From IMG/VR virus record IMGVR_UViG_3300027668_000013, positions 1 to 64,000 of that record: a stretch of DNA of 64,000 nt, one strand, 5' to 3'. The translations under genes were made by a program, and so were the position numbers. A model generated the notes under the pieces. That model was not told the origin of the DNA. It ran no database searches and worked only from the letters and a program-made list of their open reading frames with translations. The stretch's first letter is position 1. Each line of letters starts with the position of its first letter. Below, in pieces: positions 3,616-49,300 of this stretch. This DNA comes from a virus.

Positions 3616-3616
3616 A

Positions 3617-4345: not shown

Positions 4346-4349
4346 ACCG

Positions 4350-4365
4350 AATTATTAATTTTAAA
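4350..4365 (+). promoter_or_regulatory. AATTATTAA + TTTAAA leader
   Basis: The leader AATTATTAA followed directly by TTTTAAA precedes the ATG at 4377. Similar leaders are found at 9760, 13661 and, on the minus strand, 61914. It could be a translational enhancer or a promoter element; which of these is not decidable from one sequence. Confidence 0.3.
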
Positions 4366-4376
4366 AAGCATAAAAA

Positions 4377-30000: not shown

Positions 30001-30337
30001 CTATTAATTGTTTTAATTTTTTTATAGATTCTTCTTTTTTAGAACCTTCGTAAATATTGTATTTAGTACGTAAAGAATTTAAAATTCTATTTCTTTGTTT
30101 AGAAATTTTCATAAAAAAGTCAGAGTCTAAATCCTGTTTTTCATTCATTTCAAAAGAAGCTTCAGAACCATCCGTCATTGAATAACTACCATCTGCATCA
30201 ATAATTGGCATTTCATAACCATTCTTAGAAAAAATAAAGTAGGCTTCTAATTCTCCTACTTTTTCTACTAAGATATTCCAATCGCTTTTTTCTTGAGTTG
30301 GATCTGTTTTAAAACTTATATTGGGACAATTTGCCAT
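27011..30337 (-). CDS. Large virion cargo protein downstream of RNA polymerase, 1108 aa
   Basis: The N-terminus (MANCPNISFKTD, then WNILVEKVGELEAYFIF) resembles the opening of the last cargo/polymerase-region protein of crAss-like phages. The body is highly helical and lysine-rich (residues about 75-480), consistent with a coiled, DNA-associated or ejectable internal protein. Hydrophobic stretches occur near residues 980-1000 (AELSMTVATLIASTLLV), which could insert in a membrane. It sits six bases after the giant polymerase gene and would be co-expressed with it. No catalytic motif is visible. Confidence 0.6.
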   Translation of the reverse strand: MANCPNISFKTDPTQEKSDWNILVEKVGELEAYFIFSKNGYEMPIIDADGSYSMTDGSEASFEMNEKQDLDSDFFMKISKQRNRILNSLRTKYNIYEGSKKEESIKKLKQLIEDFEKADITKSILIYIQNIDSHLGYTKVVGGRKVDVTGSLIEKIESGSFKKSPGNLKRLRDYAGTFDMVKDLAKIIESRDDIPKSFKARIASAAGRVDSFDAKYIAYSKDVMVDILANESSLVRDTYKEKFAREFRVNNPRSKTKLSAKEHNLAAKAYIKQAMNDNAAKILREEKKTLREMLDVSKKDISAFSKLLIDPKGINDHLVQLTVQMLERAEKSSQAEFIDKRVDAIDTWKEFKKGFGKSVTPTNQKELYNNIIEKINGKETNYYVQLYYSTYYTAKNELNQKLFKEESAKKRRELKEEFQKNYPEKDNLNPQYFALQKDSRKKEMYDYLIQFNKDSDNNVPQQAKLGFKLPGISKALSETLTDNGAKKTASRVWKELKRVQKDESDKYGDLTEDGKGVKVVTDESGNVLKRVNIPFRSKLEYEDQSYDLMGMALTNRFVSLNYKNKNAIKTQIEVLSDIMGERSVVKNRGSKRLLSKVKNLAGVELDEEQEILESGKTSQSYELIKGIIEDRLYGRQMVKSDFKILGMDVDSLTDGLIGWSSNNFLIANYMGGGANMLAGKVMNWFEGVRGQHYGRKDLRAAELKYMLDFTNWSADIGRVGYPTSKTQMLIEKFVDTSMDFTGMSNKLTKDSRFKNMAGMQSLHAINSAAEHYIHGTVVYAFLNNKKVVNKNGEYIGKNGNVVATREEAISLDEAYYDPKDKEATKGKLTLKNKDWKVEGYEDAPDIEFVMSKILKEVVKDLHGNYDENNKAQIQRHWYGKLVFFLKKWMIPGVQRRWRGGENLFKDIDSNLEDRAMYSQFSEEFKEGTYVSGIMYLSKLWKHGKFMQTEVYSKEWNKLTDTEKGNIKSAIAELSMTVATLIASTLLVKLAEGVGDEDDERKIYALAYLMRRQYGELAFYTPVGIFGEGLRFIKSPSATISILEALYRTGVQLMEDGFGISPEYYERGQFKGESKTYVNVQKLFNPFYKQFVAKDVKKSYQYLVNTNTM

Positions 30338-30343
30338 AACTAT

Positions 30344-33300
30344 TTATTTACATGAGTTATTTAAAGATAATAACAATCCTTGAATGTCAAAGCGACTAAT
30401 CTTTGCTTTAGCCAAAGCTACTGCTTCTTCTTGAGTTGACGCACCTTTTGGTAACATACTTTTTCCTTCTTTTAAATCAGCAGCTGCATCTTTATCAACA
30501 TTTTCTATTAAAACATCATCAACTATATATGCTTGATAAACAACACTGCCTTCTACAATTTCTCTTCTAACTTCTACTCTAAATCCAGAAACTTCGTTTA
30601 CTCTAAAAACTTTAACTACAGACTCGTCTTCATTTTTAATTTCTTCTATTGAAGGAGGTTTAGGTAAATCTTCTACTTTAGGTACAGAAGCTTTATTTTC
30701 AACAACATCTGCAACCGTATCTTTTCTAAACTGTTCAACCATTTCTTTATCTTGAGGAACTTCTATTAGTTCAGAAGATAAAATAGACTGATGTTCTTCT
30801 GGAATTGGTTTACCAACTGAATTAGGACTATGGAATTTACCAAACTCTATATTCCCTTCTGTATCATAACTGTACTCTGTAGGAACTAATAAGATACTTG
30901 TAGTTGCAACTTCAAATCCTTTTTGTTCAAGCATCTCTTTATAGATACTAAGTTGTCTACTCCAACCTGTTAATTTAGATTCGAACATACCGTCATTATA
31001 TAAATTGCTATCCCAGAATTGTTGTTTGTCTGAATTAAATATTTTGTTTTTAAAATCAATAATGTGAAGTTTTCCATCTGAATCTACACCAAGTAAATCA
31101 AGAGTACCACCGATACCATCTTTTCCTTGGGCTTTGATTTGTTCTGCTGTAAAGTTTGCGTTTAAGAACAATTCTTTAGAAATAAATTTCATGTCAGGGA
31201 AAGACGATTTAATAGATGTTAAGTGATCTACTAATAAGTCAAACTCTTTTTGAGTTACGTTATTTAATTTAAATCCGTTTTCTTTATTTTGAGTATCTGC
31301 TTCTTTAACATATTCTGCTAAAGTTTTTACTTTACCACCATCAAAAATATCTCGTCCTACATTATCTACAAAGTTTCCTACAGAAGCTCCTGCTTTCATT
31401 GCTGGTTTAGCTTCAGATTGTTTAATTGCTTTATCTACAACCGCTTTTCCTATAGGAGATGTAATTCCTCCTTTTAAAACAGCTCCTGTTTTTAAATTAG
31501 TTATTTTCCCATTTTTAAAATCTACGCTATATTTAATACCATTGTATTCTACTCCTAATTTACGTGTTACATAATTAGATTGTCTTTCTAAAACTTGGTC
31601 TCCTAATTTATAAACAGACTCTTCGCCTATATCACTTTCAACTGTTGCCAAAGATGATTGTTTAGAAACTTCTTGTAAACCGTCAAGTTTACTTATAGTA
31701 GTTTCTGCTGGTGTTTGTTCAGTAGTTTTATTCATTTTTAACATTCCAGTATCAACCCATTCTTTACTAAATACAATATTAGAAGGTCTGTCTATTAAAC
31801 CTTCAGCGTCATTAAACATTTCAATCATTTCTAATCCTGTATAACCATTTAAAGACATTTCTGTAGTATTTCTATAAGCTACTTTAAATTGTTTATTAGG
31901 ATTTTGTTTAGCTGCTTCATATAGTTTAATTATACTTGTTGTAATATCTCCTTTAGAAATAGATTTAAAACCTCTATTTTCTTTTATTCTTAAGTCTTTT
32001 GTAGGTAAAGCATAAGCATTTCCTTGTAATCCTTCACCTTGTCCGGATGTAGCTCCAAATTGATCTTTAGCAATTTTAGCTGCTCCTTTTCCATGTCTCC
32101 CTTCAGGATTACTTCCGAATACAAATATAGTATTAGGTTCAGGAGTTATATTTCCTTCATAATACTGTTCAACATTTTCTTCTTCTGTTTCTTCCGTTTC
32201 TGTTTCTTCCGTTACTTCTTCAAGTATTGGTTCGTTACCATTTCTAAAAGAAGGACTATCATCATTGGTAATATATCCAACTCCAGAAGATTGATTACCA
32301 ATACTATTTTCATAGTCCGGACTTAGTGTGCTTTCAAAAGGACTTACAATTGAAGATTCAACCTCTGTATCATAAGCATACTCTGTTATATGATTTCCTT
32401 TTTGACTCATTCCTAAAGTAGGAACTCTTTTATAATATTGTTTTCCTCCTTTTTCTCCCATGCGTTTATATAATAATTTAGAAGTTTCATGTTTATATCC
32501 TGTATCAACATCTTCGTCTACAAATTTTTTCTTAGGTGTAAGTACAATAAACTTTCTAAGTTTACCCTCCCCATGATCTGAATAAAAAGAATAAGGAATA
32601 TATTTAGAATCTACACTAAAACCACCTTTGTATTTATTTAAAGCACCAGTTTTATCCGCAATACCTTTAAGCTTTTTATCATTTATAGTATGAGTAGGTA
32701 AAATATCAACATTATGACCAATAAATTGATCAAAGAAAGTATCAAAATTCACACCTTCTGCAAATGTGTTTTCCATAATAGAATTAAAAGGTAATACTCC
32801 ATCTTCCATTGATCTTTGTAAAATCGTATTTGGAATTAAATCGTAAAACGAATTTATATTTTTTTGGAAACCAGAAGATGCATAAGCATACTTTATTAAG
32901 TCTGTTGCAAATGCTTTTGTTTCTTCATTATCATATAACTCTTCCCACTCTAACCACAATGGATCTTTTTCTCTACCTTCTTTTTTCTTAGAAGAAGCAA
33001 AGGTAACAAAGTCTGGTCCTTTTCCAGGATTAACTAAAGTACCTAAAGAATTTAAAAAGGAATTAGAAGAATACAATTCTGTATTTCTCAATTTAAGTAA
33101 TCTTTTAGCCATACTTCTGTCTCCAAAAAACATTGCTTTTGTATTTTCAGGACTTAAATTAAGAGCATTTGAAAATGAATACGTTTGATATGCTTTAAGT
33201 ACTTTTCTATTAAATTCAACATCTGTACCATCATAATTTTGATATGTAGAGTTTAATCCTATTTCTTGATTTGTTTTTATAACAAGATCAATCATAGGTT

Positions 33301-36300
33301 TTTTAGCTGTTGAGAATAGATTCGACATTAAAGTTTGAACATCGTCAAATGCTGTTTCTTTCATAGCTCCAACAAAAGTCTCATTTATAATTGCCTTGTA
33401 CTCTTCTGCAAACTCTCCATCTAAAACTTCTTGTTCTAATTGTTTTGTAGCTATATGTTCTGCAATTCCAGAACCAGGCCCTGTAGTATCATACTTTGAT
33501 GCAGTAACCATTTTATTAAATTTTCTACCAAGTTGTTCTTGTTCCATAAAGAATAAGATCAATCCTGGATCGCTCTCGCCACTAACAATCATTTCTTCTA
33601 TCTCAGCTTCAGTAAATTCATTTGGTCCTTTAGAAGTTAATTTTTCTAATTCGGATTCTTTCATATTTAAATGAGAAAACTTTTCAAATGTTTTACTCCA
33701 AGGGTTTATAACACTATTGGTTGCAGAAGTTGTTTTTAAACTACCATTCTTAGTAAGCCCAAGTATTTTAATATGATCTTTCTTTTCTTTCTTAATTAAT
33801 TTACTGTTTTGAGAATCTATATTTTTTACATAATTTCTTATTTCTGGAAGAGATAACAATCTGTTTGCAGTACTTGCAGACATTCCTTGTCTCAACATAT
33901 AAAATACAGTGTTTGCGGTATTTAAATTGTTGTTAATTAAAGATATAAAAGGATCTTTCGCATTATCAACATATGCATTCATATAAGCCGATAAAGTTTC
34001 TGAAATAGATCTTCCATCAGTACTATAAATCTCAGCCATTTTTACAGCTTGTAATAAGTTGTGGTGAGTTAAATGATTTGCTGTTATACCAACACCTGCT
34101 TTACCACCAAGGTTTCTTTCTCTTATTTCATTTTGTGTAAATGGAGAAGCAAATTCTAAAGAACTACCAGGCCTCTGTTTAAAGAACTTAGCAGCAGCTT
34201 CATCTCTTAATCCTGTTGGTAAAGCCATGTAATTATTAAAAATTTCAGTTGGACTTAAAGCATCTCCTTTTTCATCAAGGAATAAGTTTAAGTCTACGTT
34301 GTCATCTGTCGCATACTTAGTATTTTTAAACCAATTTACAAATTCTTCTGTATTTTTTCTAATACCTAAAGTTTCAGTAAGAACATCCTCTAAACCATCT
34401 TTTTTAGAAGTATTGTCTTCTGATATATAATTTAATAAATGTAAATAATAAGCTTCGTTCTTTAACCAAGTTGTATCTACAGGTAATATAGCATCTGTAA
34501 ATGTACCTTTTGATTCTAATACACTTGCCCACATTTCCAATCTCTCGTTTTCAAGAGCCATTTCAGCTCTTTTACGAGCACCATATTTCTTTTTAGTTTT
34601 TGGATTTACTGCAAGTTTTGAGTTTTTATTATTAACTCTTTCAAGTATACCAGACTTAGGATTAAAGACAGTGTTGTACATCATTACGTACATCTTATCA
34701 ATATCAAAATCCGATCCTGTTTTACCAGTAATCTCATCGTACACAACTACACTATCTCCAGCAGAAGGAGGTAAAATTCCTACAATCTCAAGACTATCCA
34801 TCCCTGAAATTTTTTGGTTAGGAATACGATAACCTACTATGTTCTTAATTGTATCTCCAAGTGCGTCTTTTAAGTCTTTATCACTCATGTTTTCCCAACC
34901 TGGAATATTTTCTACATCTTTAAATGGTAAGTAAACTTGAGCTGACAAAGAACCATCCTCACGAATACGAGGACCTTTTAATTTGTTAGTACTCTTTGGG
35001 TCATAACCTTCTAAATGTCGAATATTATTTTTAGTAAATTTATCGATTTTGCTATAAGCAGCTGTTTTTTCAAAACCTTCTCCAGCAATTTGTACAAAAG
35101 ATCCACCAGTAGATGTTAATTTTATAGTAGCCTTTTTAAGCTCGGCAAATATTTCTTGTTCTATTTTATCAACGTGTTGAAATATTAAACTTAAAGGAAC
35201 CCTTGTTTCAAGTTGTTCTATTACGTTCATATCAACATTATCTCTTTTAAATTTCTCTATTAAATGTTCATAGATAGCTTCTTGATTTGTAATTCTTCCG
35301 TTTACTACATCATATTTTTGATCAAATTTCTGTCTACCTAAATGAGAAAGAACACTTTCTACCGCATTTATTTTTTGAGCCATTTGATCAGGAGTAAGTT
35401 TTTTTCCATTAAGAACGTATTCTCTTACATATTCTCCGTTAGCATTTCTTTCGAACATATTCTGAAATATGTTTTTACGAGGTTGTGAACCTACAAGTGC
35501 TTCACCTTTCTTCTCATATTTCGTAGGTAAATCTTGTTGTAGTTTCCAATGATAATTAGAAAGAGTAGTTGTTTTATAATCTACTTTACCACTAATTACA
35601 TCTTCTTTATTATAAACCGTACCTGCACCAGACTTAGCACCAGACTCATATATTACTTCGTCAATTGGATTATTAGGATTTCTCATTTTTTTAAGCAATC
35701 CTTCATGTGAAGTTCCTTTAACAAGACTCGGCCATAATACAGCTTGTGAATATTTAAGATAAGTAGGTACTGCAGATCCATTTTCATTACGTAATTCAAA
35801 ATGCATACCTTTTAGAGGTTGCATTGCTAAAAGATCTCTTGGGTCTGGATCTCCATCTTTATCCATTAATCTTTCAAAAGCTTCATCGTAATTAGTTGGC
35901 CAATTACCAAGTCCTATCATTAAAGACTTGAATCTTTCTGGAGTAATAAAAGCTTGACCATCTGCTTTATTTAACTCGTTTTTACGATAAGGTTTTAATA
36001 TTGCTATTGCTTCTTCTTTAGTGTATGCGTTAACATCTTTTCCATTACGAACAATCTTTTGATTCATAAGATGATTTAAATAATCATCGTACTGCTCACT
36101 TGTTTCTGTATCAGCATCTTTTATTACTAATATTTTATAGTCTTTAGGAGTATTGTACTTTCCAAATTCATCTTTTGTAAAAATTAAATCTGAACCTTGA
36201 CCTGAAGTAGCTGGTGTACGTTTAGATATATCCTTATAGAATGCAGGATCTCCTGTAAACAACATTGTAAATTCTATATTTGCTGTCATTGAATTTACCA

Positions 36301-39300
36301 TATAATCAAGAACCATATTATTAACAGCATCTGTTTCAGTTGCGTTTTCATTTTGATAATGATTTAAAACGGTAGAATCTATACCAATTATTGTTAATCC
36401 TCCTTCTGGATTTTCTTTTATAATATTATTATCTTTTAAAGTCTGTACAGCTTTTTCGTGTTGTAATTCTATAGTTTCTTTAATATGGTTTTTAACTTTT
36501 ATTACAACTTTTTCGTCAGAAATATTTACCACACCTTTACTATCAAACAAACCTATTTCTTTTGCCAAGGTAGTTCCAAATGATAATTCTGGAAACCAGA
36601 AAAACTTTTTACTTCCTTCGTTATCAAAATATTCGTTTCCGGTTTTATTTTTTTTGTTTCGAGCGTTTGAATATCTATCTACTTCTGCAGTAAAATATTG
36701 AAACATATCCTCTACGGCCTTATGATCGGCATTACCGTTTTTATCTACATTAATTAATTGTCCATTTTGAGCAACCCTATATTGATCCATTGGGAGCCCA
36801 GTAAACATAAAGTGAGAACTTTTATCTGCAAGTGTAAGTGGAGAAAATACAGAACCATTTTTATTTCTAACTCCATTTAAAACTTTGTTCATACTATCAA
36901 GTTGCATATCAACAGTGGTCATGTTCTTAAACGCTGTACCAGGATCTGATGAGTCGTTCTCAACTCTGTTTGATAAATAAACTTGTACTGCAAATTCTTC
37001 TAATCTTTGCTTACTTTGAGAACTTAATTCTTGAGGTTCTAAACTATTAAAGTCATACTCATCTCCAAGTAAGAACTTAATCCATTTTGAAGACTGATGA
37101 TATTTACCACTATTAAGTAATTTACTTAAAGATGTATGGTCTTGTTTCCACTGATTAACATTTTTACTAATAAAGTTGTTTAATGACTTAGTCCAGTACA
37201 AGTTATTCTCTGGTCCTAAAACCATATTTTCAAGAGTGTCTTTTTTACGGTATCCTTCAATTGATGCAAAAGTTTGGAAAATAGAATTTTCAGTAATAAA
37301 GTCTGAATTTTCATCTGTATCAAAATCATAATCTTTACTAATCATTTTTTCTAAAGTCAAAGACTTATTGTTTCTTGCGTAAGAAGAACCTGACTTTATA
37401 ATCTTTCCGTTTGCGTCTTTTACTTGTGTAGTTCCAGGCTCAAGAAAAGGGAATATCATTTTCTTTAAAAAAGAGTTTCTAAACTTACTCGCTTCTGAAG
37501 CATTAGTTACTTTTTCATAGACTCCAGGGACAACTTGTTCTGTAAGTTGACTACCCATTACATATGATTGTAATGATTCTGGTGAAACTTCGATACCTAA
37601 TGTATCAAGAGCATCTGAAATAGTAATGTAATAACTAAAGTCAAATTTTCCTTCGTTTCTTTTGTTAAAACCTTTTAAGTCATCATTAAGTTCTATAGCA
37701 ATAGATCTAAATGTTTCAACAACTTCAGATAATTTTTTTCTTGCACGTACTTCAGTAGCCGTGTCTGGTTTGAAATCACCATTTTCAATAAATTTATACC
37801 TGAAGTTTTCACTAAACTGGTTTCTTAATAATTTAGCATGTGATTGTTGATCTGCATTTCCTATTTTATAATTATACTCCTCCCCTTCGACTATAACCCC
37901 AGTGTGATTGTACGTAATTTTTTGTTTAGAAAACGCTCTATAAAATTGAACCTTTTTAAATAAAGGAACAACGTCATCAGGAGCTTCCAATTGACTTATC
38001 AGTTCATTAAACTCTGGATGAGTTACTGCTAAACTTTTTATTTTGTTTAACATTTTATCAACTTGATCTCCGTTAGAATCTTCAACAATGTTAGCAAGAC
38101 TGTCTTCTAACATTCTCCAAGACACTTCAAACGGAGCAAGTTTTTTAAACTTACCTCCAAAGTTTTTAGAAGTTGTATTTGGATCAGCTAACATCTTTAC
38201 CATAAATCTGGTATTGTGTGTAGCATTGTCTTTACCAGAATAAGTAAGTGCTTGTCTAATATTTAAATCTCCACTCACATCATCTTCTTGTGTCTCACCC
38301 ATTGGAGTTTCGTCTGTAATAGATTCAGAGTCTAAAAGAGCAAAGCTTTTAAGTGAGTCTTTAGATAGTTCTACAAGGTCTTTCCAGTTATCTAATTTTT
38401 TATCTGCACTATGAAGAAGTTCAAGCTGATCAAAAGTAACCCAATCATCTGTTACATCAGCTTCATCGTATGCCATGTTTATTTCATTGACAATATCTTT
38501 TCTTATTATTTCAAAAATATCATCTAAGTCTTCAAAGCCTTCTTGAACAGATAGATCCATAGATCTTATCCCAGCCATTTGAATTGCTTGATAAGTAATG
38601 TGATCAACAGCTTCGTGTATAAGATCTTGTTTTATACCACCTTTTAATCTTGAATTAATAATTCTTTTTGAATGAGCAAAAGGAGGAATGTAATCAAATC
38701 TACCTCTTCTTATTTGTGAAAATATCTTTCCTTTGTTAGTTCTAAATGCATCTACTAAGTCCATTAGTAAATCATAAATCCATTTAACAGAATTAGGAAC
38801 CTTCATTGTTCTTTTAGAAAGCATGTACTCTCTAAACTCTTCTGCTAATATCTCTTCAGCTTGAGCAGCGTTTACAGCATATTTCTTTTGTACTTTCTTA
38901 AGAAGGTTGTTTCTTTCTCTTAAAGTTAAATAACCGTCCATTACAGCATGGAAACCTTCATGGTATGCAATACCTTCGTTAGCTCCGTTAGCAATAGTAA
39001 CAACACCTTGATAAAACTGACCTTCTGCAACACCACCATAAGCACCTGCTATTAAAGTTTTAGCAACTTCAACTGGAACATGAGGTAATATTAATGCTAA
39101 GTTTTCAAGTTCTTTAGTAATGTCTGCTTCAGTTTTTCTTTTTGAGTATATTGAATATGTAGGATCATCTTTTATTTCTTTTTCTATTTCTTTTTTTCTT
39201 TCAATAGGAACAGTATTTATTAAAGTTTGTTCTTGTGGAGTAAAATCAGTAATTATTTTACCGCTAATCATATGTCTGACTAACTGTTCTGCTTTTTGAG

Positions 39301-42300
39301 TATCAGTTCCTTTATTTTTATTATTAGCAACTTCTCCATTAGCTACAATTTCTTTTTGTTTAGTAGTTAACGTTTCTACTTCTCTACGATTTCTTACTTT
39401 TTTTGTACCAGGATTAGGTTTAGCTAACCCATTTGCATTCTGATTATCAGTCTCACTCGCTACTTTACCTTTTCCTTCAAGTGAAGTAGCAATTTTTATA
39501 TCGGGTATATTTGTTGGAAACTTGTCTGTTTGATTTTCAGGATTTCCTTCTACTCTTCCATTAGCTTCTTTTTGAGTTACATTAAGAGGGTTTCCTTCTT
39601 TTTTTCCAGAAGTATTATTTTTATTTTGATAAACAGCCTTTTTCTTTGGTGCACCTTTATCTTTAAATTCATTAGGTCCTGGAGTAGTAGTATCGACATC
39701 TGCTTCTTTAGCTATTTCTGCAGCAGTTTGTTCTTTTTGTGCAGCTGCGTCTTTTTGTGCAAATGCTTTAACTGATTCTTCAAGAATGTTTTTAGTTCTA
39801 CCAAATACTTTTAGTATTGCCCCACTGTCAGTTTGAGACATGGACATCACTACACCTTTTCTATTTACTACATACTTAAACTTGTTTTCCTTTCCATTTT
39901 TATCTACATACGAATCTTCAACAACAACAGCATCTCCTTTTTTTATTTGATAGTTTGCAAATATTTTATTTCGTACTGTATTTTTTGTACCCTCTTTAAA
40001 TGCAAAAACTTCTACACCTTTATGATTTAAAATTTGAGAACCTTTAATAAAGTATCTTGATTTTTTTTGCTCTGCTTTAGGAGCATTTGGGTTCCTTATA
40101 TAAAAAACTTCATTTGAATTAGGATCTGTAATATCAGGTACTGTTTCAGATTTAGTAGAGGTATCTCTTGATGGGAGTTTTCCTCTTATTTTATAAAATT
40201 CTCGACTTGCAATAACAAAATTTATAGCGTCTTTTACAGCGTCTTTTCCTTTAAACGTTGTTTGTTTTCCATTAATTTCTACATACCAAACACTTTTTGC
40301 TCCTTTTCTAACTCCGATGTCAAATGTTTTACCAAAACTATCTACTACTTTATTTAAGTATTGTGCATCTGTTAAAGGTTTAACTTTAGTAGGAATATAA
40401 GCTACTGGTAATACTTCTTCTTCTCCTATTTTATCACCAGCATCTTCTATTTCTTTTCTAACTTTTGGATATAGTTCTGTTAGGTATTCAATAGCTTCTT
40501 TTGCAGTATAAAATGACTTTGATTTGTTACGACTTTTTACATTAAAAGTATTTTCTCTTCCCCCCTGTGTTATCGTAATCGTATTGTTCTTAGGCAAAAA
40601 CTCTTTGAAATGATTACTAAGTTCCGTAAGTTTAGAAATATCAGTTAATTCATTATCTGCATTTTCTTTTAAGTCAGAAGGTTTTACCTCATCGTTAGAT
40701 TTAGATATTTCTTCTTCTTTTTCTCTAATCTTTTTTTGAGCGTCTGTTTCAAATGAAGTTCTTTTTGTTTCTGATTTTTTGAAACCAGTAGTTTTTTTGA
40801 AAAAAGAATCTTCTCCATTTTTTAAAAGAATCTCAATAAGTCTTTTACCTGCTTCAACTCTTTTAGCAGGCATGTCTTTTGTTCCATAATTTGTAGCAAT
40901 CTCTTGTAAAGTACTAATAATACTTTCATCACCCCTTTTCTTTAAAGTAGATCTAATTTCTTCTACTAATTGTTTAGCTTCTTCATTGTTTGGAAAAACT
41001 TGTTCTTTAAGAAAAACTGTTAGTGCGTTATACGTAGTATAATTATTTGCCTTTATTCTAAGAGCATCTAATCCTAACCAAGTTTTATTATAAAAATTTT
41101 CTGAAAGAACAGGTTCTGATTTTATAGAAGGATCTGATATTGCTTTTATACCAGCAAGAGTATCATCGTAATCATAAAATTCATGAATGTCTTCTTTTGT
41201 TATTTCTTCTTTCCCAGTACCAGTTAAAAACCCCCAGTTTGATGTTTCTTTTTTACCACCAATCTTTTTCCAGTTCTTTGGTTCACTCATAATAACTGTA
41301 GGATTAACAAACAGTCTATTACTTGGGAATGTAGCATTTGTACTTAATGCTTTTTGAGAAAATTGAAAATCATTGTAATTAGTATCTGAAGGAATTTCAT
41401 CACCAAACCATGTAAATGTAGTGTTACCAACATCTGTTTGATTTAATTTTTGATTAAGAAATTTTGCATTTGTTGTTCTCCACATTACTGCAAGAGATTC
41501 TGCAATTTCTAATTGAACACTTGACTCTTGTAATTCAGAAAGTTCAACTTTCTTTTTATTTTTTCCAAAAGTTATAGAAGGGCTTGGCTTGTCTGATAGA
41601 TTTATCCAAAAAGGATATTCTGTATTTAAACTGGCTTGGCCCGTATAGATTAACAAATCCATTATATCCTTATTTCTAAGTCCTGATATATTAGATTTTC
41701 CATTAAACAAAGCAGCAGAGTCGGCACCTTCAGCATATGCTACAAGTACTTCCATGATTGCTTGTATCTCTTTATTTTCTAACTTTCTTGAGTTAAGTTT
41801 TAATGGGAAAGGTTTATTGTCAAGACTTCTTACTTTCATAAAAACAAATCCTGCAAGTCCCCCTACACTCGCTCGACCTGAGTTTTCAAGTTCTTCATCT
41901 TCTATATTCTCTTTAGTATCATACACAAGACCAACACCATCAGAGACTAATAATTTTCCTTCTCCGTTTGCTTTAGGTTTATCAAAAAACTCACTTGGAT
42001 CATTTCTTAATCCTGTTTTAGTATCAGACTTAAGTATTCCAGTTGAAACACTTTCTATTTTAGTTTCATATGTTTCACCATTTAGTAAAGCTTTTATTAT
42101 ATCTTTTCTTGCTGCAGTAACGGATTCGTACTGACCTTCAACATTTAAATCAAAAGGCAATTTAAAACGACCATAAACTTCTTTAGCTAAAACTTTTATC
42201 TTATTACCATTTCTATCATAAGCAACCATTCTAATTGGAAGGAATTGCATATCTTCTTCAGTTAAAGAATTTGGATCATTAAAGAATTTATCTATAGCTT

Positions 42301-45300
42301 TAGCTGCTTCACCTTCTCCTTTAGTAGCCCATTTTGCTTTACCGTCTGCTTTATCAACTTCAAATCTAAAGGAAGTACCTCTCTTATCTGTAATCTCACT
42401 TTCTAACCAATCAGAAATACCACTATCATCTAAATCACCAACACCATCGGAAGAAGAAACATAGGCTAAACTCCAACCATACTTCTCATTCATTCCTTTT
42501 TGCTTACTATTATGAGAATTACTTATTGGAGGATTTATTTCAGGATTAGTAACATCTGTAACTACAACATCTTTATTAGCTTTATCCGCAGCTATTTCTT
42601 GCGCTGTAGCAGCAGCTGCTACTTCTGAAGCAAGTTTACCACTGGGATCAAGATTTTCAGTTATTACTTCTGTAACAGCTTTCAATGTTTCAGAAGTAGT
42701 TTGAGTTGTTCCTTCTGGATTTGGATTACCTGGTTGAGAATTATCTGTAACACCAGTAAGGTCTACTACTGAAATACCATCAGGTACTTCTTTAGGTCCT
42801 GTTTCAGCTTCAAGATTTACTCCTGCTGCTTTAGCTAATGCATCTATTTCAGCTTGGAGAGCATCTGCTTTATTAGTAACAGCTTGCTTTAATCCATTTT
42901 CATTTACTTCTGCAACAGTTTCAGTAATGCTTAATTTATTTTCTTCCGGTACTTCAGTAGGTACTTTATTAGCTCCTGTGTTTGTTTCTGTAGGTTGTCC
43001 TTTTATAGGCCCGTCTTCTCCTTTACCAACTACAAGGGCTCCATCTCCACCACCTTCTCCTTCAATTACTTCTGTTGTATTTTCTTCTTCAAATTCAGAA
43101 TCTATATTTCCATCAACTAATGTTTCTAAATATTTATCAACTCTATATTTAAAACCATCTGCAGTTTCATGAATTTCAATCGCTTTTAATTCATTGATTG
43201 CTATATCATATCGAGCACTCATTTTTTCTCTTTGTGCAGCAACCTGTTCTTTCTTTTGTTTGTATACAGTTTTTGCAACAGCTCTTTCTGAAATAGCTTT
43301 TTTCATTTCTGCTCTTTCTAAACTATGCTCTTTACGTAAACTGGATTCAGCTTCTTTTAATCTTTTATATTCGGTAGGTGAGTACTTTATATTTATTTTT
43401 TGTTTTTCTTGTAAAGTAAGACCTTCTTTGTTCTTACGCATGTATCCGTACTTACCAATTTGCTTCTCTTGTTCAAAAGCATTAAGTTCTTGTTTAGCTT
43501 TACTGTAAGCACGACCAGTTGTAGATACTTTATCTCTTTGTTCTTTGAAGTCGTATTCGTTCTTTTCTTTCCAATCATCCCAGGCTTTAGAAGATTTAGC
43601 ATCAATTGCTATTTTCATTCTTTTTATAGCATTAATTCTTTTCTCAGATCTCATGACTTGGTCTTTGACGTCATTCATCTCATCTGTGATTTCTTTATTT
43701 GCTACATTTAATTTGTCAATTAAATCCTGTCTTTGTTTTTTACTTAACTCAACTTTACCAATCATTGCCAGATTGGTATAAACATCTTTTTCATTAAATG
43801 TTTTAGTTTCAATTTCGTTTGTTAAGTACTCATGATATTTTTTCCTAAGTAATTTTTTAGATTTTGCAGAGTTTTCAAATTCAAAAGTTTTAGACAAACC
43901 TTGATACCCAACCCAAGCACTCATTTTTTTACCTGCTGTTTCTACAAACTTTTTATAAGAATCAAGAGATTCTATTTCATTATCAGATATGTATTTTCCA
44001 AATGATTCTGAACCATCTCCTTTCTTAACTTTAACTTCTTCTTCAAGCTTCCCAATCTTCTTTTCAATTTCTGCTTCTTTAGCAATAAGTTGTTCTGCTA
44101 ATCCTATTTTTAATTCTGGATTTTTGTTAAGCTTGGATCTCATTTGATTCAATGCTACCATTTCGGCTTTAGTAGCCATTAGTTCTAATTGTAAAGGACT
44201 AACGTCTTTTCCACTAACACTTTTAACTTCTTTTATAATTGAATTTCTACTAACATCTAAATCCTTATCAATTGCCGTCATTGTTTGCTTTAACCCATCA
44301 ATTCGAGACTTTAATTTAAATAAATCATTTGCTTTAGCAGTACCATGTTTATTGTATAAGCTCATGTAATCTGAAGAGTAGCCTTCTAATTTTGATAATA
44401 AAGCAGTTGCTTTTGTTTGATCTTCAGCAGTATATCCTTCTCCACCAGCTTCAACTTCTTTTAAATGATTTTCAAGACCTTCTATCATACCCCTATTTGC
44501 GTATCTTGCAAACAAGCCTTCAAATCTTTGATTTTCTATATCCTCCATTGCTGTACCGTCTTCATCTAATACAGCATCTTTATAGGCCATCATAAGATTA
44601 CCTTCTTCTTTAAAGAATTTATCAAGATCTTCTTTTGCTTTTAGGTTTGTACCAAGCCTTCTATTTTCTATATAGTTTACGTATTCTTGTTTTTCAAGTG
44701 TGTGTTTATTTTTTCTTTCTTGATACCCTTTCATTTCAGCATCAAATTCTTTTACAGATTCATTGTACTGATCTTCTGAAACACCAGACTCATCATAAAC
44801 TTTTTTCTTTTCTCTGTAATCATCCCACTCTTTTGCTGTAACAACTTTAGATGCGTCTTCTTTACTAACTCCTTTATTAGCAGCCATGTATTTTTCAACA
44901 GGATCTAAAGGAGCGGGTCCTTCTGGAACAGATTGTTCCTTTACAATATCTCCTCTCTTAGGTCTTTCTTCTGTAAATTCTTTTGGTTTGGTAACAGGGT
45001 CTATAAGTCCTGCCGCTTCTCTTGCTTTAGTTATACTTGCTGAAAAAGCCTTTACAGTATAATGTTGAAAAGGACCTCCAATAAATCCCATAAAACCTTC
45101 AGTCAAACCTTCTTCGGAAGTTGCATAATCAGTAGCCCTACCTAAGTAAGAAGATTTATCTTTTTGTTCTAATCCAAGTTGAATAAGAGCATCTCTTGTA
45201 TTATCTTTTTGAAAGAATCCAGCAGACATTTCTTCAAATGATTCTCCTAATCCGTCTTTAAGATGGTTTCCCATTTGTTGCTTAAAGCCTTGTTTCATTC

Positions 45301-46312
45301 CTCCTCTAATCGTACCGTTCCCTTTAATAATACCTCTTAAAGCAATCGCATCTGTAAAAACGTTTACTTTATTATACAGCATAAAGTCTGATACTTCACT
45401 ATCAGCTATCTTTACAGCTTCTGCGTAAGACACATCATTTGCAAGTGCTTTATCCATAATTTCTTTGTGCATTTCTGCACCCATCATTACAGATTCAGCA
45501 TAGTTAGTAACAGCTGCTGTTCCAAGTTGTGTTATAATTTGTTGTGGGATTTTACCCATCTTAACTAAAGTCCCTATTAAACCTGTAGCACCTTTAACTA
45601 AACTTCCAGCACCAGCACCAATACCAGCAAAACCAACTGTAGAATCTACAAGTCCTTGCAGTCCCCGCATTGTTTGTGCCATTGCGCTATCTCCATAAAT
45701 ACCATTGTATTCATCGTACTTTTCTTTTCTTTCGCCAGCCCATTCAGATAACATGTTTGTATATCCTTCTTCAAATGAATTTGAAAATCCAAACCATTGT
45801 GGTACATCGGCAATATAACCAACGTTTTGAATAAACGTCATTGTACCTTTATAAACACCTCCAGCTACAGCTCGTGTAAGTTGAGAACCAAAATTTTGAG
45901 CTTCTTCAAATGCTTTATCAGCATCGGCATTTACTTTTAGAAAAGCGTTTTGTGGAATTTCATATTCTTCGGCTTCGGCTAATTGAGCGTCAGTAATTGC
46001 TTTAGATTGTAAAGATATATCTTCAAATTCTGAACTACTAACTCCATCTTCTTCATCAAAGTAATTAGACATTTTATCAAACCCGGAAGTATCGTCAACA
46101 GCTGGTTCTTCAACTACTTCTTCTTCAAGATTAGTATCTGCAACTACTTCATTATTAATAACTTCCGGTTTTTCTGGACTTATTTCTGTTCCTTCCTTAA
46201 CCTCTGCTCCAGATCCCACAACCGTAGGATTAACTTCAGTTTCTGGCGTTTCATTTTTATTATTTGATGCAACACCATCTTCGTATAATCTTTCATTAAT
46301 CCTACTTGCCAT
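30344..46312 (-). CDS. Giant virion RNA polymerase polyprotein, 5322 aa
   Basis: This single open frame of almost 16 kb encodes: an acidic low-complexity N-terminus (1-130); hydrophobic glycine-rich segments (about 155-290, GFAGIGAGAGSLVKGATGLIG) that may insert in membranes; a long coiled region (about 480-1070); a zincin motif HEGFH (H2451, E2452, H2455) with a likely third ligand in AEEF (about E2491); the DFDID active-site motif (3868-3872) in GSDFDIDKMYVMMYN, which in YonO/crAss RNA polymerases holds catalytic Mg; a macro-like domain (about 4725-4850, VFGSNPEGRHGKGAA); and a PD-(D/E)xK nuclease (D5072, D5086-F-K5088). In phi14:2 a much shorter homologue is packaged and transcribes early genes. 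Here several functions are fused, and cleavage by the zincin domain is an attractive but untested idea. Confidence 0.85.
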   Translation of the reverse strand: MASRINERLYEDGVASNNKNETPETEVNPTVVGSGAEVKEGTEISPEKPEVINNEVVADTNLEEEVVEEPAVDDTSGFDKMSNYFDEEDGVSSSEFEDISLQSKAITDAQLAEAEEYEIPQNAFLKVNADADKAFEEAQNFGSQLTRAVAGGVYKGTMTFIQNVGYIADVPQWFGFSNSFEEGYTNMLSEWAGERKEKYDEYNGIYGDSAMAQTMRGLQGLVDSTVGFAGIGAGAGSLVKGATGLIGTLVKMGKIPQQIITQLGTAAVTNYAESVMMGAEMHKEIMDKALANDVSYAEAVKIADSEVSDFMLYNKVNVFTDAIALRGIIKGNGTIRGGMKQGFKQQMGNHLKDGLGESFEEMSAGFFQKDNTRDALIQLGLEQKDKSSYLGRATDYATSEEGLTEGFMGFIGGPFQHYTVKAFSASITKAREAAGLIDPVTKPKEFTEERPKRGDIVKEQSVPEGPAPLDPVEKYMAANKGVSKEDASKVVTAKEWDDYREKKKVYDESGVSEDQYNESVKEFDAEMKGYQERKNKHTLEKQEYVNYIENRRLGTNLKAKEDLDKFFKEEGNLMMAYKDAVLDEDGTAMEDIENQRFEGLFARYANRGMIEGLENHLKEVEAGGEGYTAEDQTKATALLSKLEGYSSDYMSLYNKHGTAKANDLFKLKSRIDGLKQTMTAIDKDLDVSRNSIIKEVKSVSGKDVSPLQLELMATKAEMVALNQMRSKLNKNPELKIGLAEQLIAKEAEIEKKIGKLEEEVKVKKGDGSESFGKYISDNEIESLDSYKKFVETAGKKMSAWVGYQGLSKTFEFENSAKSKKLLRKKYHEYLTNEIETKTFNEKDVYTNLAMIGKVELSKKQRQDLIDKLNVANKEITDEMNDVKDQVMRSEKRINAIKRMKIAIDAKSSKAWDDWKEKNEYDFKEQRDKVSTTGRAYSKAKQELNAFEQEKQIGKYGYMRKNKEGLTLQEKQKINIKYSPTEYKRLKEAESSLRKEHSLERAEMKKAISERAVAKTVYKQKKEQVAAQREKMSARYDIAINELKAIEIHETADGFKYRVDKYLETLVDGNIDSEFEEENTTEVIEGEGGGDGALVVGKGEDGPIKGQPTETNTGANKVPTEVPEENKLSITETVAEVNENGLKQAVTNKADALQAEIDALAKAAGVNLEAETGPKEVPDGISVVDLTGVTDNSQPGNPNPEGTTQTTSETLKAVTEVITENLDPSGKLASEVAAAATAQEIAADKANKDVVVTDVTNPEINPPISNSHNSKQKGMNEKYGWSLAYVSSSDGVGDLDDSGISDWLESEITDKRGTSFRFEVDKADGKAKWATKGEGEAAKAIDKFFNDPNSLTEEDMQFLPIRMVAYDRNGNKIKVLAKEVYGRFKLPFDLNVEGQYESVTAARKDIIKALLNGETYETKIESVSTGILKSDTKTGLRNDPSEFFDKPKANGEGKLLVSDGVGLVYDTKENIEDEELENSGRASVGGLAGFVFMKVRSLDNKPFPLKLNSRKLENKEIQAIMEVLVAYAEGADSAALFNGKSNISGLRNKDIMDLLIYTGQASLNTEYPFWINLSDKPSPSITFGKNKKKVELSELQESSVQLEIAESLAVMWRTTNAKFLNQKLNQTDVGNTTFTWFGDEIPSDTNYNDFQFSQKALSTNATFPSNRLFVNPTVIMSEPKNWKKIGGKKETSNWGFLTGTGKEEITKEDIHEFYDYDDTLAGIKAISDPSIKSEPVLSENFYNKTWLGLDALRIKANNYTTYNALTVFLKEQVFPNNEEAKQLVEEIRSTLKKRGDESIISTLQEIATNYGTKDMPAKRVEAGKRLIEILLKNGEDSFFKKTTGFKKSETKRTSFETDAQKKIREKEEEISKSNDEVKPSDLKENADNELTDISKLTELSNHFKEFLPKNNTITITQGGRENTFNVKSRNKSKSFYTAKEAIEYLTELYPKVRKEIEDAGDKIGEEEVLPVAYIPTKVKPLTDAQYLNKVVDSFGKTFDIGVRKGAKSVWYVEINGKQTTFKGKDAVKDAINFVIASREFYKIRGKLPSRDTSTKSETVPDITDPNSNEVFYIRNPNAPKAEQKKSRYFIKGSQILNHKGVEVFAFKEGTKNTVRNKIFANYQIKKGDAVVVEDSYVDKNGKENKFKYVVNRKGVVMSMSQTDSGAILKVFGRTKNILEESVKAFAQKDAAAQKEQTAAEIAKEADVDTTTPGPNEFKDKGAPKKKAVYQNKNNTSGKKEGNPLNVTQKEANGRVEGNPENQTDKFPTNIPDIKIATSLEGKGKVASETDNQNANGLAKPNPGTKKVRNRREVETLTTKQKEIVANGEVANNKNKGTDTQKAEQLVRHMISGKIITDFTPQEQTLINTVPIERKKEIEKEIKDDPTYSIYSKRKTEADITKELENLALILPHVPVEVAKTLIAGAYGGVAEGQFYQGVVTIANGANEGIAYHEGFHAVMDGYLTLRERNNLLKKVQKKYAVNAAQAEEILAEEFREYMLSKRTMKVPNSVKWIYDLLMDLVDAFRTNKGKIFSQIRRGRFDYIPPFAHSKRIINSRLKGGIKQDLIHEAVDHITYQAIQMAGIRSMDLSVQEGFEDLDDIFEIIRKDIVNEINMAYDEADVTDDWVTFDQLELLHSADKKLDNWKDLVELSKDSLKSFALLDSESITDETPMGETQEDDVSGDLNIRQALTYSGKDNATHNTRFMVKMLADPNTTSKNFGGKFKKLAPFEVSWRMLEDSLANIVEDSNGDQVDKMLNKIKSLAVTHPEFNELISQLEAPDDVVPLFKKVQFYRAFSKQKITYNHTGVIVEGEEYNYKIGNADQQSHAKLLRNQFSENFRYKFIENGDFKPDTATEVRARKKLSEVVETFRSIAIELNDDLKGFNKRNEGKFDFSYYITISDALDTLGIEVSPESLQSYVMGSQLTEQVVPGVYEKVTNASEASKFRNSFLKKMIFPFLEPGTTQVKDANGKIIKSGSSYARNNKSLTLEKMISKDYDFDTDENSDFITENSIFQTFASIEGYRKKDTLENMVLGPENNLYWTKSLNNFISKNVNQWKQDHTSLSKLLNSGKYHQSSKWIKFLLGDEYDFNSLEPQELSSQSKQRLEEFAVQVYLSNRVENDSSDPGTAFKNMTTVDMQLDSMNKVLNGVRNKNGSVFSPLTLADKSSHFMFTGLPMDQYRVAQNGQLINVDKNGNADHKAVEDMFQYFTAEVDRYSNARNKKNKTGNEYFDNEGSKKFFWFPELSFGTTLAKEIGLFDSKGVVNISDEKVVIKVKNHIKETIELQHEKAVQTLKDNNIIKENPEGGLTIIGIDSTVLNHYQNENATETDAVNNMVLDYMVNSMTANIEFTMLFTGDPAFYKDISKRTPATSGQGSDLIFTKDEFGKYNTPKDYKILVIKDADTETSEQYDDYLNHLMNQKIVRNGKDVNAYTKEEAIAILKPYRKNELNKADGQAFITPERFKSLMIGLGNWPTNYDEAFERLMDKDGDPDPRDLLAMQPLKGMHFELRNENGSAVPTYLKYSQAVLWPSLVKGTSHEGLLKKMRNPNNPIDEVIYESGAKSGAGTVYNKEDVISGKVDYKTTTLSNYHWKLQQDLPTKYEKKGEALVGSQPRKNIFQNMFERNANGEYVREYVLNGKKLTPDQMAQKINAVESVLSHLGRQKFDQKYDVVNGRITNQEAIYEHLIEKFKRDNVDMNVIEQLETRVPLSLIFQHVDKIEQEIFAELKKATIKLTSTGGSFVQIAGEGFEKTAAYSKIDKFTKNNIRHLEGYDPKSTNKLKGPRIREDGSLSAQVYLPFKDVENIPGWENMSDKDLKDALGDTIKNIVGYRIPNQKISGMDSLEIVGILPPSAGDSVVVYDEITGKTGSDFDIDKMYVMMYNTVFNPKSGILERVNNKNSKLAVNPKTKKKYGARKRAEMALENERLEMWASVLESKGTFTDAILPVDTTWLKNEAYYLHLLNYISEDNTSKKDGLEDVLTETLGIRKNTEEFVNWFKNTKYATDDNVDLNLFLDEKGDALSPTEIFNNYMALPTGLRDEAAAKFFKQRPGSSLEFASPFTQNEIRERNLGGKAGVGITANHLTHHNLLQAVKMAEIYSTDGRSISETLSAYMNAYVDNAKDPFISLINNNLNTANTVFYMLRQGMSASTANRLLSLPEIRNYVKNIDSQNSKLIKKEKKDHIKILGLTKNGSLKTTSATNSVINPWSKTFEKFSHLNMKESELEKLTSKGPNEFTEAEIEEMIVSGESDPGLILFFMEQEQLGRKFNKMVTASKYDTTGPGSGIAEHIATKQLEQEVLDGEFAEEYKAIINETFVGAMKETAFDDVQTLMSNLFSTAKKPMIDLVIKTNQEIGLNSTYQNYDGTDVEFNRKVLKAYQTYSFSNALNLSPENTKAMFFGDRSMAKRLLKLRNTELYSSNSFLNSLGTLVNPGKGPDFVTFASSKKKEGREKDPLWLEWEELYDNEETKAFATDLIKYAYASSGFQKNINSFYDLIPNTILQRSMEDGVLPFNSIMENTFAEGVNFDTFFDQFIGHNVDILPTHTINDKKLKGIADKTGALNKYKGGFSVDSKYIPYSFYSDHGEGKLRKFIVLTPKKKFVDEDVDTGYKHETSKLLYKRMGEKGGKQYYKRVPTLGMSQKGNHITEYAYDTEVESSIVSPFESTLSPDYENSIGNQSSGVGYITNDDSPSFRNGNEPILEEVTEETETEETEEENVEQYYEGNITPEPNTIFVFGSNPEGRHGKGAAKIAKDQFGATSGQGEGLQGNAYALPTKDLRIKENRGFKSISKGDITTSIIKLYEAAKQNPNKQFKVAYRNTTEMSLNGYTGLEMIEMFNDAEGLIDRPSNIVFSKEWVDTGMLKMNKTTEQTPAETTISKLDGLQEVSKQSSLATVESDIGEESVYKLGDQVLERQSNYVTRKLGVEYNGIKYSVDFKNGKITNLKTGAVLKGGITSPIGKAVVDKAIKQSEAKPAMKAGASVGNFVDNVGRDIFDGGKVKTLAEYVKEADTQNKENGFKLNNVTQKEFDLLVDHLTSIKSSFPDMKFISKELFLNANFTAEQIKAQGKDGIGGTLDLLGVDSDGKLHIIDFKNKIFNSDKQQFWDSNLYNDGMFESKLTGWSRQLSIYKEMLEQKGFEVATTSILLVPTEYSYDTEGNIEFGKFHSPNSVGKPIPEEHQSILSSELIEVPQDKEMVEQFRKDTVADVVENKASVPKVEDLPKPPSIEEIKNEDESVVKVFRVNEVSGFRVEVRREIVEGSVVYQAYIVDDVLIENVDKDAAADLKEGKSMLPKGASTQEEAVALAKAKISRFDIQGLLLSLNNSCK

Positions 46313-46373: not shown

Positions 46374-49300
46374 TTAAGTTGTTCCTACTGTAATATCTTT
46401 TTGATAGTAATTGCTTTTTTTATTTTTATCTTCTACTTTTGCTTTATCCATTAATGCTTGTAATTCTTTAGTGTCTGTGGCAGTCATATTAGATACCCTT
46501 CTCTTAGAAATTATTTCATGGGTATCTGAATTAAATTCCATAATACTAACAGAGTCTTTTTGATTACCACCAAGAAGTCTTAACGTTCCGTCTTGGTTAG
46601 CACCAGCGTTAAAAGCAACATGATAACCTGAAGATCCCTTTGAACCTTTTCTTCTAATTACTATAATATCACCCGGTTTATCATCGTCTTTAGCAACAGC
46701 CGATCCAAGTTTTTGATAATCTCTGGCTCTTATGTTTTTGTAAGGATTATTAATGTTTCCTTTTACTTTTAATCGTTTACCTTCATCATCTGTTAATTTC
46801 TGTACTGGGTCATAACCACCATGTAATAACACATGGTTAACAAAAGCAGCACACCAAGCAGTACTTGTAACAGAGTCTTTCTTTGCAAAATGAGAGTCTG
46901 TTCCACCTATAGCTTCAGTAAAGAATCCGTGGATAGTCTCTTGTTGATCTATGTCATTTTCATTGTAACTAAGAAAAGAAGAAGCGTATTCTATCACGTT
47001 TTCTTTTGTTGGCTTCTTTCCGTCTGGAAAAGGGTAAAGCATTCGCTCTAATCCTTTTTCAACCAATTCTACTTTTTTATCTGCAGCACCTTCTGGATTA
47101 GCTAAATCTTTTTTAATTATTTCTTTTTTAGCAACAGGAGAAACTGTTTTTAAATTTACAATTTTTAATGAATCATCTGTGTTTAATGGGGTAGGAATAT
47201 TTAATTTAGTAAGTTCCTCATCAAAATTATTTACTTTTAAATCCTCTCTATCTAAATTAAATGATTGCGGTTTATCTAAATTTTCAGAATCTTTTTCGTC
47301 GAAATCAAAATTTACCATTTCTTCAACTTCTTCATCAGATATGTTTGTTGGATTTTCATTAACATCAAAATTAGGATTAACTTCTCCTTGATCATCAACA
47401 TATCTTCTACTTGTATTATTAAATTGACTTGGGTTAAATGCTTCAGCGTTGTCAAAAGGAATAGTTGTCTCATTGTCTTGAACTTCCGCTTGAGCTATTT
47501 CATCTTGAGACATTGCTTGTTTTTCAATATCTGTAAATCTATACGGTTCAAATTCTTCTTCTTCTGGTTCAGATGTTAATGATGAATCAGAATAATCAGA
47601 ATACTCTCTCATTTCCGCTTCCATAATAGAATCGAGTTCTTCAGGTCTCATTTTTAAATTTGGTTGAACACCATCTGGATAAGAATACATTCTACCTTCT
47701 GAATAACTCATACCATTTCTACCTTCTGAATATCTTCTACCGTGTCTAAAAGAACCTAATTCAACTTTCTTCTTTTCAATTTCTTTATAGTCTTTAGGTT
47801 TTTTATTAGGGTTTATTTCATATATTTTTTCTCTTACCAACTGTCTCGATATTTCACGAGCATTCATATCTTTAAATCTTGGATAAGCATCTTGAAAGTT
47901 TTTTAATCTTTTAGGATTTGATTCTAAAGTAGAACTGTTTTTATAAACTTTTAAAAATTGAATAGCATCTGGGCCTGTTAGATTTAATTCCTTATTTGTC
48001 ATTCCATTTCCAAGGTCTATGAAAATACCAACTGAGGTTGGATCTAATGAAATTTTATAAGCCCCCCCATCAGAAAAATTGAAATTAAAATCCTTTTTAA
48101 ACGGTTTACCTGCACCAGGCTCTTTAGTTTGTATACTAACTCCATCTCTATGATTTCCAACAGGAGTTCTACTTAAAGAATTTATTCTTGCATTATGTAA
48201 ATCAGATCTAATTTCACTTTCTACCAATTCTCTTTTTGGAACACTATAACCTTTAAGTTCAAGTTTGTATCCACCAGCTGGTTTAGGTTGATTAATAGTA
48301 AAAGGAATTTTAAAATTCTTACCATTTAATGTAAATGTAATATTTTTTTGTCCTGTAATAGGGTCTATATCATCACTAAAGAAACCATCTGATATTGATT
48401 TTGTTAAAACACTAATGTAATCTTTAGGTTCTACAGCATTTGAACCACCTGTTTTAAAAGTACTTCTTGGTGTTTCTTTAGTATTGTTATCTAAAGCTGT
48501 AAAAAATGAACCGTCAAGAATTGTACTAATAGGTAAATTCTTTATAATATCTTTCATAAAAAACTGCCTATCTTCTACTCCAGCTATATCTGATTTTAAA
48601 TTTATAACATTCGATTGATTTAACTCTATTGATACTCCTTTTTCTCTTTTTGCATTTAATGATTTATTAAAAATATCGTCAGATCGAGTAAGTTGATCTT
48701 TCATTTCTTGATGATTATTTTTTACTTTTCTATATTCTTTTTTTTCTTTTGCCATGGTTGCAGAAAATCTTTTAAGTTTTTCCCAACCTGCTTCTGGATC
48801 TCCGTTTCCTATGTTTGTTAAAAATTTTGAGTTTGATGCTACTCCTAATATCTTCTCTTTGTATGATGACATATTCTTTTCAAAGTCATCACTACCTGGT
48901 TTTTCATCGTCGTCTGCGTCTGCATCGGCTCCTTGAAAATACCTACTTTCCATTGAAGAAAGTAATTTAGAAATACCATTAATATTTATACCAGATTTGT
49001 TAGCTCCAGTAGACCTATGAGCATTTGTTGTTCCAGATACTGTACGAGTATAATTATCTCTAATATAATCTACTCCCTCTTTGTAATTAGATCTTACTGT
49101 AGCAAGTTTATCTGCTGTGTATGGAAGATTTGTTTCTGGATCAATATCAAATTTTGTTTTAAGACCTTTAATTAAAAAACCATCTACTTTACTTACAATA
49201 GCAGTTGACATTTTATCTTGTTGTAATTTTAATTCTTTAACTCCATTAGGACGTGCTAAAAGACCTTTTTCGTAAACTTCTCTTTCATTTTCTTTAATTC

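Follow-up and report, generated by a model that had tools for sequence, protein, structure and literature searches.

A 5322-residue Crassvirales protein combining gp47-like, zincin-like, virion RNA polymerase, macro and predicted nuclease modules, and a terminal-cysteine pattern at cargo-protein junctions

Giant polymerase genes encoding up to ~6000 amino acids are a hallmark of the Crassvirales (PMC10136315), a group for which a 2021 description reported large multidomain transcription proteins, in some crAss-like phages with a PD-(D/E)xK domain inside (PMC7886860). For homologues of these polymerases, presence in the virion and transcription of early genes are known (PMC10172136; PMC10136315). 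In PhicrAss001, gp47, gp49, and gp50 were identified in virions by mass spectrometry (PMC10172136), and g065–g067 of phi14:2 bear an MS/MS-based annotation.

Here, we analyze a window of 64,000 nucleotides—positions 1–64000 of the 77,557-base IMG/VR virus record IMGVR_UViG_3300027668_000013. The features described below lie on its minus strand unless marked otherwise. At 30344..46312, 5322 codons are open in the standard code without stops or frame breaks, in agreement with the single uninterrupted frame of ~16 kb claimed by an earlier sequence-only reading of this DNA. A crAss-like MCP, portal, and TerL are encoded elsewhere in the same record, and the phage is a member of the Crassvirales. 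In the order muzzle–C1–C2–giant protein–1108-aa protein, its genes are arranged as in the transcription/cargo block of the Crassvirales. The muzzle or tail stabilisation position is held by a virion structural protein of 1674 aa (53545..58569; phrog_15100, E 9e-37, and synteny). It is followed in the C1 (gp45) position by a cargo protein of 892 aa without cysteine (50865..53543) and in the C2 (gp46) position by one of 1487 aa (46374..50837), the latter two named by position only. As the 1487-aa protein ends in a CHAP/TIGR02594 domain, it may bear a peptidoglycan-cleaving module if ejected. On the other side of the giant frame follows the gp49/gp65-like polymerase-associated protein of 1108 aa (27011..30337), a homologue of phi14:2 gp65 (profile E 1.1e-123). 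RIIA-like and RIIB-like genes are found on the opposite strand at 6939–9755 and 9785–10942 (+).

The N-terminal part of the giant protein (residues 1–2390; 39143..46312) is gp47-like, with a distant match to cr108_1 (146–458) and long matches to the relative L015 and to a separate 1692-aa protein of the relative L016. Its center is formed by a two-barrel-type virion RNA polymerase (residues ~2629–4721; 32150..38428), delimited by gp66 homology and by homology to L015 up to residue 4721. When searched with phmmer against all PDB chains, residues 3008–4177 matched phi14:2 gp66 (6vr4_A) as the sole chain with an E of 2.5e-93, and a second, weak match to gp66 covers residues 2629–2849. The catalytic DFDID lies exactly where it had been claimed (residues 3868–3872; 34697..34711); its D.D.D-K signature is, along with other residues, invariant in an alignment of 11 polymerases. 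Homology to gp66 and the DxDxD motif thus identify this region as a Crassvirales virion RNA polymerase. Structure models cover the zincin and macro domains, and the polymerase was judged by homology: because residues 3008–4177 are homologous to the solved phi14:2 polymerase, a double-psi β-barrel near residue 3868 is predicted. Pfam matches on slices of the protein, including one to EAD9, were weak and below cut-offs and were treated as chance. In cr108_1 (L005 17677–29267) and L099, the polymerase frame is broken within the catalytic GSD/FD motif in an intron-like manner.

Between both parts, a zincin-like metallopeptidase domain is found (residues 2397–2626; 38435..39124), with HEGFH exactly at residues 2451–2455 as proposed and a second helix bearing E2486/E2487..A2490-E2491. 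The domain belongs to a conserved family that likewise closes the gp47-like region in other Crassvirales and retains its catalytic residues: 11 Crassvirales rows share H, E, H, E, E, A, E, and F without exception, and a 35-row alignment does so for H, E ... E, A. By chance, HExxH with a downstream E..AE was obtained in 3 of 1000 shuffles. The AlphaFold model displays a confident core of a helix, three strands, the HExxH helix, and a second helix with E, E, A, and E. As a whole, this model yielded no significant Foldseek match, and no Pfam zincin scored above threshold for residues 2397–2626. The nearest solved zincin by profile is the Pro-Pro endopeptidase Zmp1 at a weak E of 0.006–0.008, a similarity that is suggestive only. 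In L084 and L087, the motif reads HEVFE rather than HExxH, and the second zinc ligand is gone.

The polymerase is followed by a domain of the A1S_2505/phrog_2072 family (residues 4712–4870; 31703..32179), matching NCBIfam A1S_2505_Nterm with an E of 1.4e-29 and phrog_2072 with 6.6e-32. It contains FGSNPEGRHGKGAA at residue 4732, the segment that had been read as macro-like around residue 4733, and the structure model (pLDDT 90) bears out this fold: the top Foldseek matches are macrodomains (E ~4e-4 to 1e-3, probability 1.00, TM 0.5–0.6), and the matches include ADP-ribose complexes and DarG. By this model, residues 4712–4870 are a macro fold. The phage family A1S_2505/phrog_2072, which is catalogued without a fold, appears to consist of macrodomains. 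In IMG/VR, 32 of its matches are short stand-alone ORFs, and in about 40 of the 80 loci from a separate scan for the macro domain it resides in polymerase ORFs, either C- or N-terminal of the polymerase.

Closer to the C-terminus, residues 5010–5164 (30821..31285) are predicted to be a RecB/Cas4-like PD-(D/E)xK nuclease with a QxxxY motif, its site being G..D5072 ... D5086-F-K5088 ... Q5120...Y5124. Taken alone, the PD-(D/E)xK pattern is not significant, as it is present in 117 of 300 shuffles. The nuclease claimed at residues 5072–5088 is nevertheless conserved in relatives: G, D, G, D, K, and Q are invariant in 13 rows, and Y in at least 90%. The zincin and nuclease motifs are hence accepted because of their conservation across relatives and not by pattern alone. 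Matches to a phrog_298 exonuclease (E 1.4e-4) and to solved nucleases (best E 0.04–0.05) are weak. For both domains, conservation and profiles thus speak for the proposed folds, whereas a significant fold match was not obtained.

The sequence-only reading had regarded the protein as an unusual all-in-one take-over machine. Four modules are indeed combined in one ORF, but the literature already counts giant multidomain virion polymerases among the hallmarks of the order, and the individual modules recur in other phages. A single-sequence scan for relatives found none, and an alignment-based scan of IMG/VR delivered 80 loci. In this alignment-based sample, 39 of 82 polymerase ORFs carry a zincin (32 of these 39 are closed ORFs, 2582–5006 aa), and a macro domain is carried by dozens of polymerase ORFs. 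Two other, uncultured phages, L175 and L180, appear to unite the four modules with the nuclease preceding the macro domain, the nuclease match of L180 being weak and devoid of the strict motif. New is the module arrangement; giant multidomain Crassvirales polymerases as a kind are already known. The open frame of L176 (282–19040, minus strand), containing zincin, macro domain, and polymerase, is with 6253 aa larger than the 5322 aa of the window. Among named phages, a single ORF of 4287–4946 aa encodes the gp47-like region and the polymerase in Flavobacterium Fpv3 and the Suoliviridae examined; two separate genes do so in the Steigviridae examined. On a tree of 69 polymerase cores—with distant loci left out—the 5322-aa protein is sister to L015 and then to L016, and macro presence changes 11 times. 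As L015 and L016 bear neither macro domain nor nuclease, the simplest reading is that this branch acquired the macro–nuclease block, as a recent addition. Similarity to L015 stops at residue 4721 and resumes shortly at the extreme C-terminus; hence, the block appears to be inserted ahead of a retained tail.

A further pattern concerns the ends of these proteins. The 5322-aa protein contains a single cysteine, the penultimate Cys5321 (codon at 30350..30352), and the next protein of 1108 aa likewise a single one, Cys4 in MANC (codon at 30326..30328)—the proposed partner of Cys5321. In the Crassvirales, gp47-like, polymerase, and gp49-like proteins are nearly free of cysteine apart from one at each end that faces the next protein, and where two of them are fused in one ORF, the cysteines of that junction are missing. 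In phi14:2, gp67 carries one cysteine (its last residue), gp66 two (residue 3 and the penultimate one), and gp65 one (residue 3). For PhicrAss001, the counts are one in gp47 (third residue from the C-terminus), three in gp50 (residue 5, an internal one, and the ninth from the C-terminus), and one in gp49 (residue 5); the pattern holds although gp47 and gp50 are encoded on opposite strands. With polymerases of IMG/VR loci classed as separate or fused by lead length, and starts taken as the first ATG of each frame, an N-terminal cysteine (residues 1–10) is present in 40 of 41 separate (short-lead) versus 4 of 34 fused (long-lead) polymerases. The upstream partner contains exactly one cysteine within its last 10 residues in 32 of 33 cases, compared with 1 of 28 upstream of fused proteins; the 1487-aa C2-position protein, without a terminal cysteine, matches this expectation. 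A C-terminal cysteine is found in 91 of 93 polymerases, and an N-terminal one in 79 of 79 downstream partners (84 of 86 when the partner is found by profile). The five length-based misfits were all reassigned post hoc by gene content or clade, three of them by clade only: in L107 the zincin lies in a separate 1858-aa frame, L144 has a separate upstream protein of 1292 aa with a cysteine near its end, L105 and L131 fall into a separate-polymerase clade, and L075 into a fused Fpv3-like clade.

The second joint behaves alike. The gp49-like domain lies inside the polymerase ORF in four loci only (L061, L079, L104, and L173, of which L104 runs off the locus at both ends and L173 at the start), and these bear no cysteine at the gp49-like joint or near the C-terminus—L061 has none in 5008 residues. 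Unusual splits are cysteine-flanked as well, be it ahead of the zincin (L016, the cysteine of the upstream protein being 17 from its end) or inside the polymerase (L032 and L100). The intron-like breaks in the GSD/FD motif of cr108_1 and L099 are not flanked by cysteines, and the C1, C2, and muzzle neighbors do not follow the terminal-cysteine pattern. On the tree, the junction state—corrected by gene content—changes five times, and the N-terminal cysteine follows every time. Fisher's test gives p ~1e-15 with related phages treated as independent; a sign test aware of relatedness is left with four usable pairs (p 0.125), too few for significance. Junction cysteines are encoded by TGT (88) and TGC (7), and this use of both codons makes selection on the amino acid likelier than a cause at the nucleotide level.

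Two further phages, neither of them used for discovery of the rule, were consulted. In crAss002 (Intestiviridae), gp32 contains one cysteine, the penultimate residue. As the rule predicts, gp33 (L189 11243–23980), in which polymerase and gp49-like regions are united, lacks a cysteine at its C-terminus. The first cysteine of gp33 is residue 35 from the annotated start, and an internal ATG at 33 reads MSC, so that the N-terminal match depends on a start chosen by us that differs from the annotation. The annotation probably places the start 32 codons upstream of the true one, which would read MSCTPSN. Outside the junction rule, the putative transmembrane protein gp30 of crAss002 (L189 548–2221) has a single cysteine eight from the end (FRCGGKKKIA). 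In crAssE-Sib (epsilon), a 2208-aa protein with one cysteine as last residue is followed by a 752-aa protein with cysteines at residue 5 and the penultimate position, this middle protein not being recognised as a polymerase by profile. In its annotated form, the gp49-like protein has no cysteine near the N-terminus, and an overlapping ORF just upstream begins with MTSTC, which would match the rule if a frame error divides the two. At L191 5086–11488, this gp49-like gene seems to be split into the 281-aa MTSTC ORF and WOZ57323, possibly by a frame error. Both phages are supportive of the rule, if not clean tests of it. A limited literature search found no earlier report of terminal cysteines in these proteins. 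Overall, the pattern is very likely real as a correlation.

As best explanation, we consider the 5322-aa protein a Crassvirales virion-cargo fusion—a gp47-like part, zincin, and RNA polymerase, to which macro domain and nuclease were added—that belongs to a cargo train joined by fusion or by cysteines, with a probability of roughly 0.65. That the frame is merely an assembly artefact, or that undetected introns fuse unrelated genes, appears highly improbable: while it stems from one metagenomic record without an isolate, it runs without stops or breaks, the relative L015, whose polymerase core is 53% identical, shows this gene order too and a fused ORF of 3989 aa, and other contigs repeat the C-terminal macro/nuclease extensions. 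A more serious alternative is a self-processing polyprotein, whose zincin would cut beside itself and free the polymerase from the gp47-like part, be it ahead of packaging, within the head, or once inside the cell. The zincin is located directly N-terminal of the polymerase, the two flanking regions are separate genes in Steigviridae, and zincins are predicted to process polyvalent proteins, P1 DdrB being a processed example (PMC5512222). On the other hand, the N4-like virion RNA polymerase also carries a zincin, and the N4 protein is packaged uncut (PMC5512222). HEAFH is kept in PhicrAss001, cr112, and Dulem virus 41 despite a separate polymerase gene—in PhicrAss001 within gp47, on the strand opposite to gp50—whereas Fpv3 and several fused ORFs of IMG/VR have no recognisable zincin, and L084 and L087 have lost its second His. 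As the domain is kept without fusion, undetected in some fusions, and deprived of a ligand in two, polymerase release is unlikely to be its sole role; host proteins or other cargo are possible targets. Cutting would furthermore cost fused phages the link that two cysteines mark in split phages, and this cysteine pattern implies a junction that is meant to remain joined. The earlier idea that the polymerase carries its own protease hence stands with respect to a zincin-like domain, but self-cleavage is doubtful and the polyprotein alternative unlikely.

From the pattern of cysteines, we infer an end-to-end linkage of the giant cargo into one ejectable chain, probably by disulfides. The cysteines might instead represent a packaging tag, a metal ligand, or a docking contact to the portal or core. 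For this speaks that they are conserved where little else at the protein ends is, and that a covalent bond is deduced from their pattern. However, a fused protein should still need its N-terminal tag, yet both cysteines of a fused joint are absent, and in the gp47-like and gp49-like proteins examined, the end facing outwards bears no cysteine, which makes a tag or docking role rather unlikely. Split-intein or native-chemical-ligation chemistry was ruled out, given that both partners of a joint bear a cysteine, that the N-terminal cysteine is usually residue 3–7 and not the first one, and that no intein domain was seen. A disulfide is made harder to conceive by the reducing surroundings of the many anaerobic hosts, and easier by the published intermolecular (inter-subunit) disulfides that stabilise the tail of PhicrAss001 (PMC10172136). 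The macro domain and nuclease, in turn, could serve assembly or replication—for example trimming of packaged DNA—instead of being injected effectors, since Crassvirales also encode separate PD-(D/E)xK nucleases in replication and structural blocks (PMC7886860). Nevertheless, the nuclease sits in several places of virion-cargo proteins (gp47-like, gp49-like, and the C-terminus of the polymerase) and therefore fits a delivery with the cargo, so that an assembly or replication role seems a somewhat unlikely option. Both the macro domain and the PD-(D/E)xK nuclease are mobile among the packaged giant proteins, which points to counter-defence at the start of infection; most likely, they are injected counter-defence or takeover modules.

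For the fused cargo protein proposed here, we consider the following course most likely, with packaging, ejection, and transcription taken from its relatives. During assembly, gp47-like, polymerase, and gp49-like parts would be loaded as one chain, consecutive proteins being coupled by gene fusion or by a near-terminal cysteine pair, probably as disulfide. In the phage of the window, the first joint is the fusion, and the second one would be a link between Cys5321 and the Cys4 that the 1108-aa protein carries. As judged from its homologues phi14:2 gp66 and PhicrAss001 gp47/gp49/gp50, the cargo would be ejected in order and threaded through portal and tail. The linkage may separate inside the cell, where the polymerase would refold and start early transcription. 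Zincin, macro domain, and nuclease might act on host or defence targets—the macro domain by hydrolysing or sensing ADP-ribose species, the nuclease by cleaving host or competing DNA. Whether all three parts are packaged as one covalent chain of ~0.7 MDa, pulled out in order via fusion or disulfide joints and separable in the reducing host cytoplasm, we regard as evenly balanced.

It is an open question how phages get protein cargo of megadalton size through a narrow tail in the correct order, and the cysteine rule addresses it: nearly without exception and readable from sequence, it tells which cargo proteins join end to end. For PhicrAss001, it predicts cross-links of gp47 Cys2339 to gp50 Cys5 and of gp50 Cys2404 to gp49 Cys5. 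Where annotation of a genome is difficult, it also helps to place start codons and the limits of genes.

Compared with described systems, the 5322-aa protein resembles phi14:2 gp66 (6vr4) in the polymerase at residues 3008–4177, in gene order, and in the gp65-homologous next gene. In phi14:2, however, gp67 and gp66 are separate, gp67 ending in Cys and gp66 starting with MAC at the joint that is a fusion here, and gp66 bears no recognisable zincin, macro domain, or nuclease. The sequence-only reading had described the phi14:2 homologue as less than half as long and separate from such modules, which is right for gp66 (2180 aa) but incomplete, as the adjacent gp67 (1797 aa) takes the position of the N-terminal part. 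The Suoliviridae cr10_1, cr50_1, cr118_1, cr1_1, cr4_1, and cr60_1 share the succession of gp47-like part, zincin, and polymerase in 4460–4946 aa, cr50_1 also the macro domain; in contrast, no nuclease was found at their polymerase C-terminus, and cr1_1 and cr4_1 have it in the next protein. L175 (4480 aa) and L180 (4464 aa) likewise appear to unite four modules in one ORF, yet with the nuclease before the macro domain—here, the macro domain comes before the nuclease—and with polymerases of a distant clade. The virion RNA polymerase of P23-45 (PMC10770324) is, as here, a two-barrel single-chain enzyme fused to a large structural/ejection protein; its fusion partner differs in being the tape-measure protein, and the portion of that report available to us does not mention zincin, macro, or nuclease modules. 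Polyvalent phage proteins including the N4 virion RNA polymerase (PMC5512222) are large, injected, and multidomain and, as here, combine an RNA polymerase with a zincin, although the N4 enzyme is T7-like and unrelated. N4 gp50 (L186 9524–20026, minus strand) has zero cysteines in 3500 aa. The 5322-aa protein has several domains in one chain and would be a polyvalent protein if it is delivered with the virion, as its homologues suggest.
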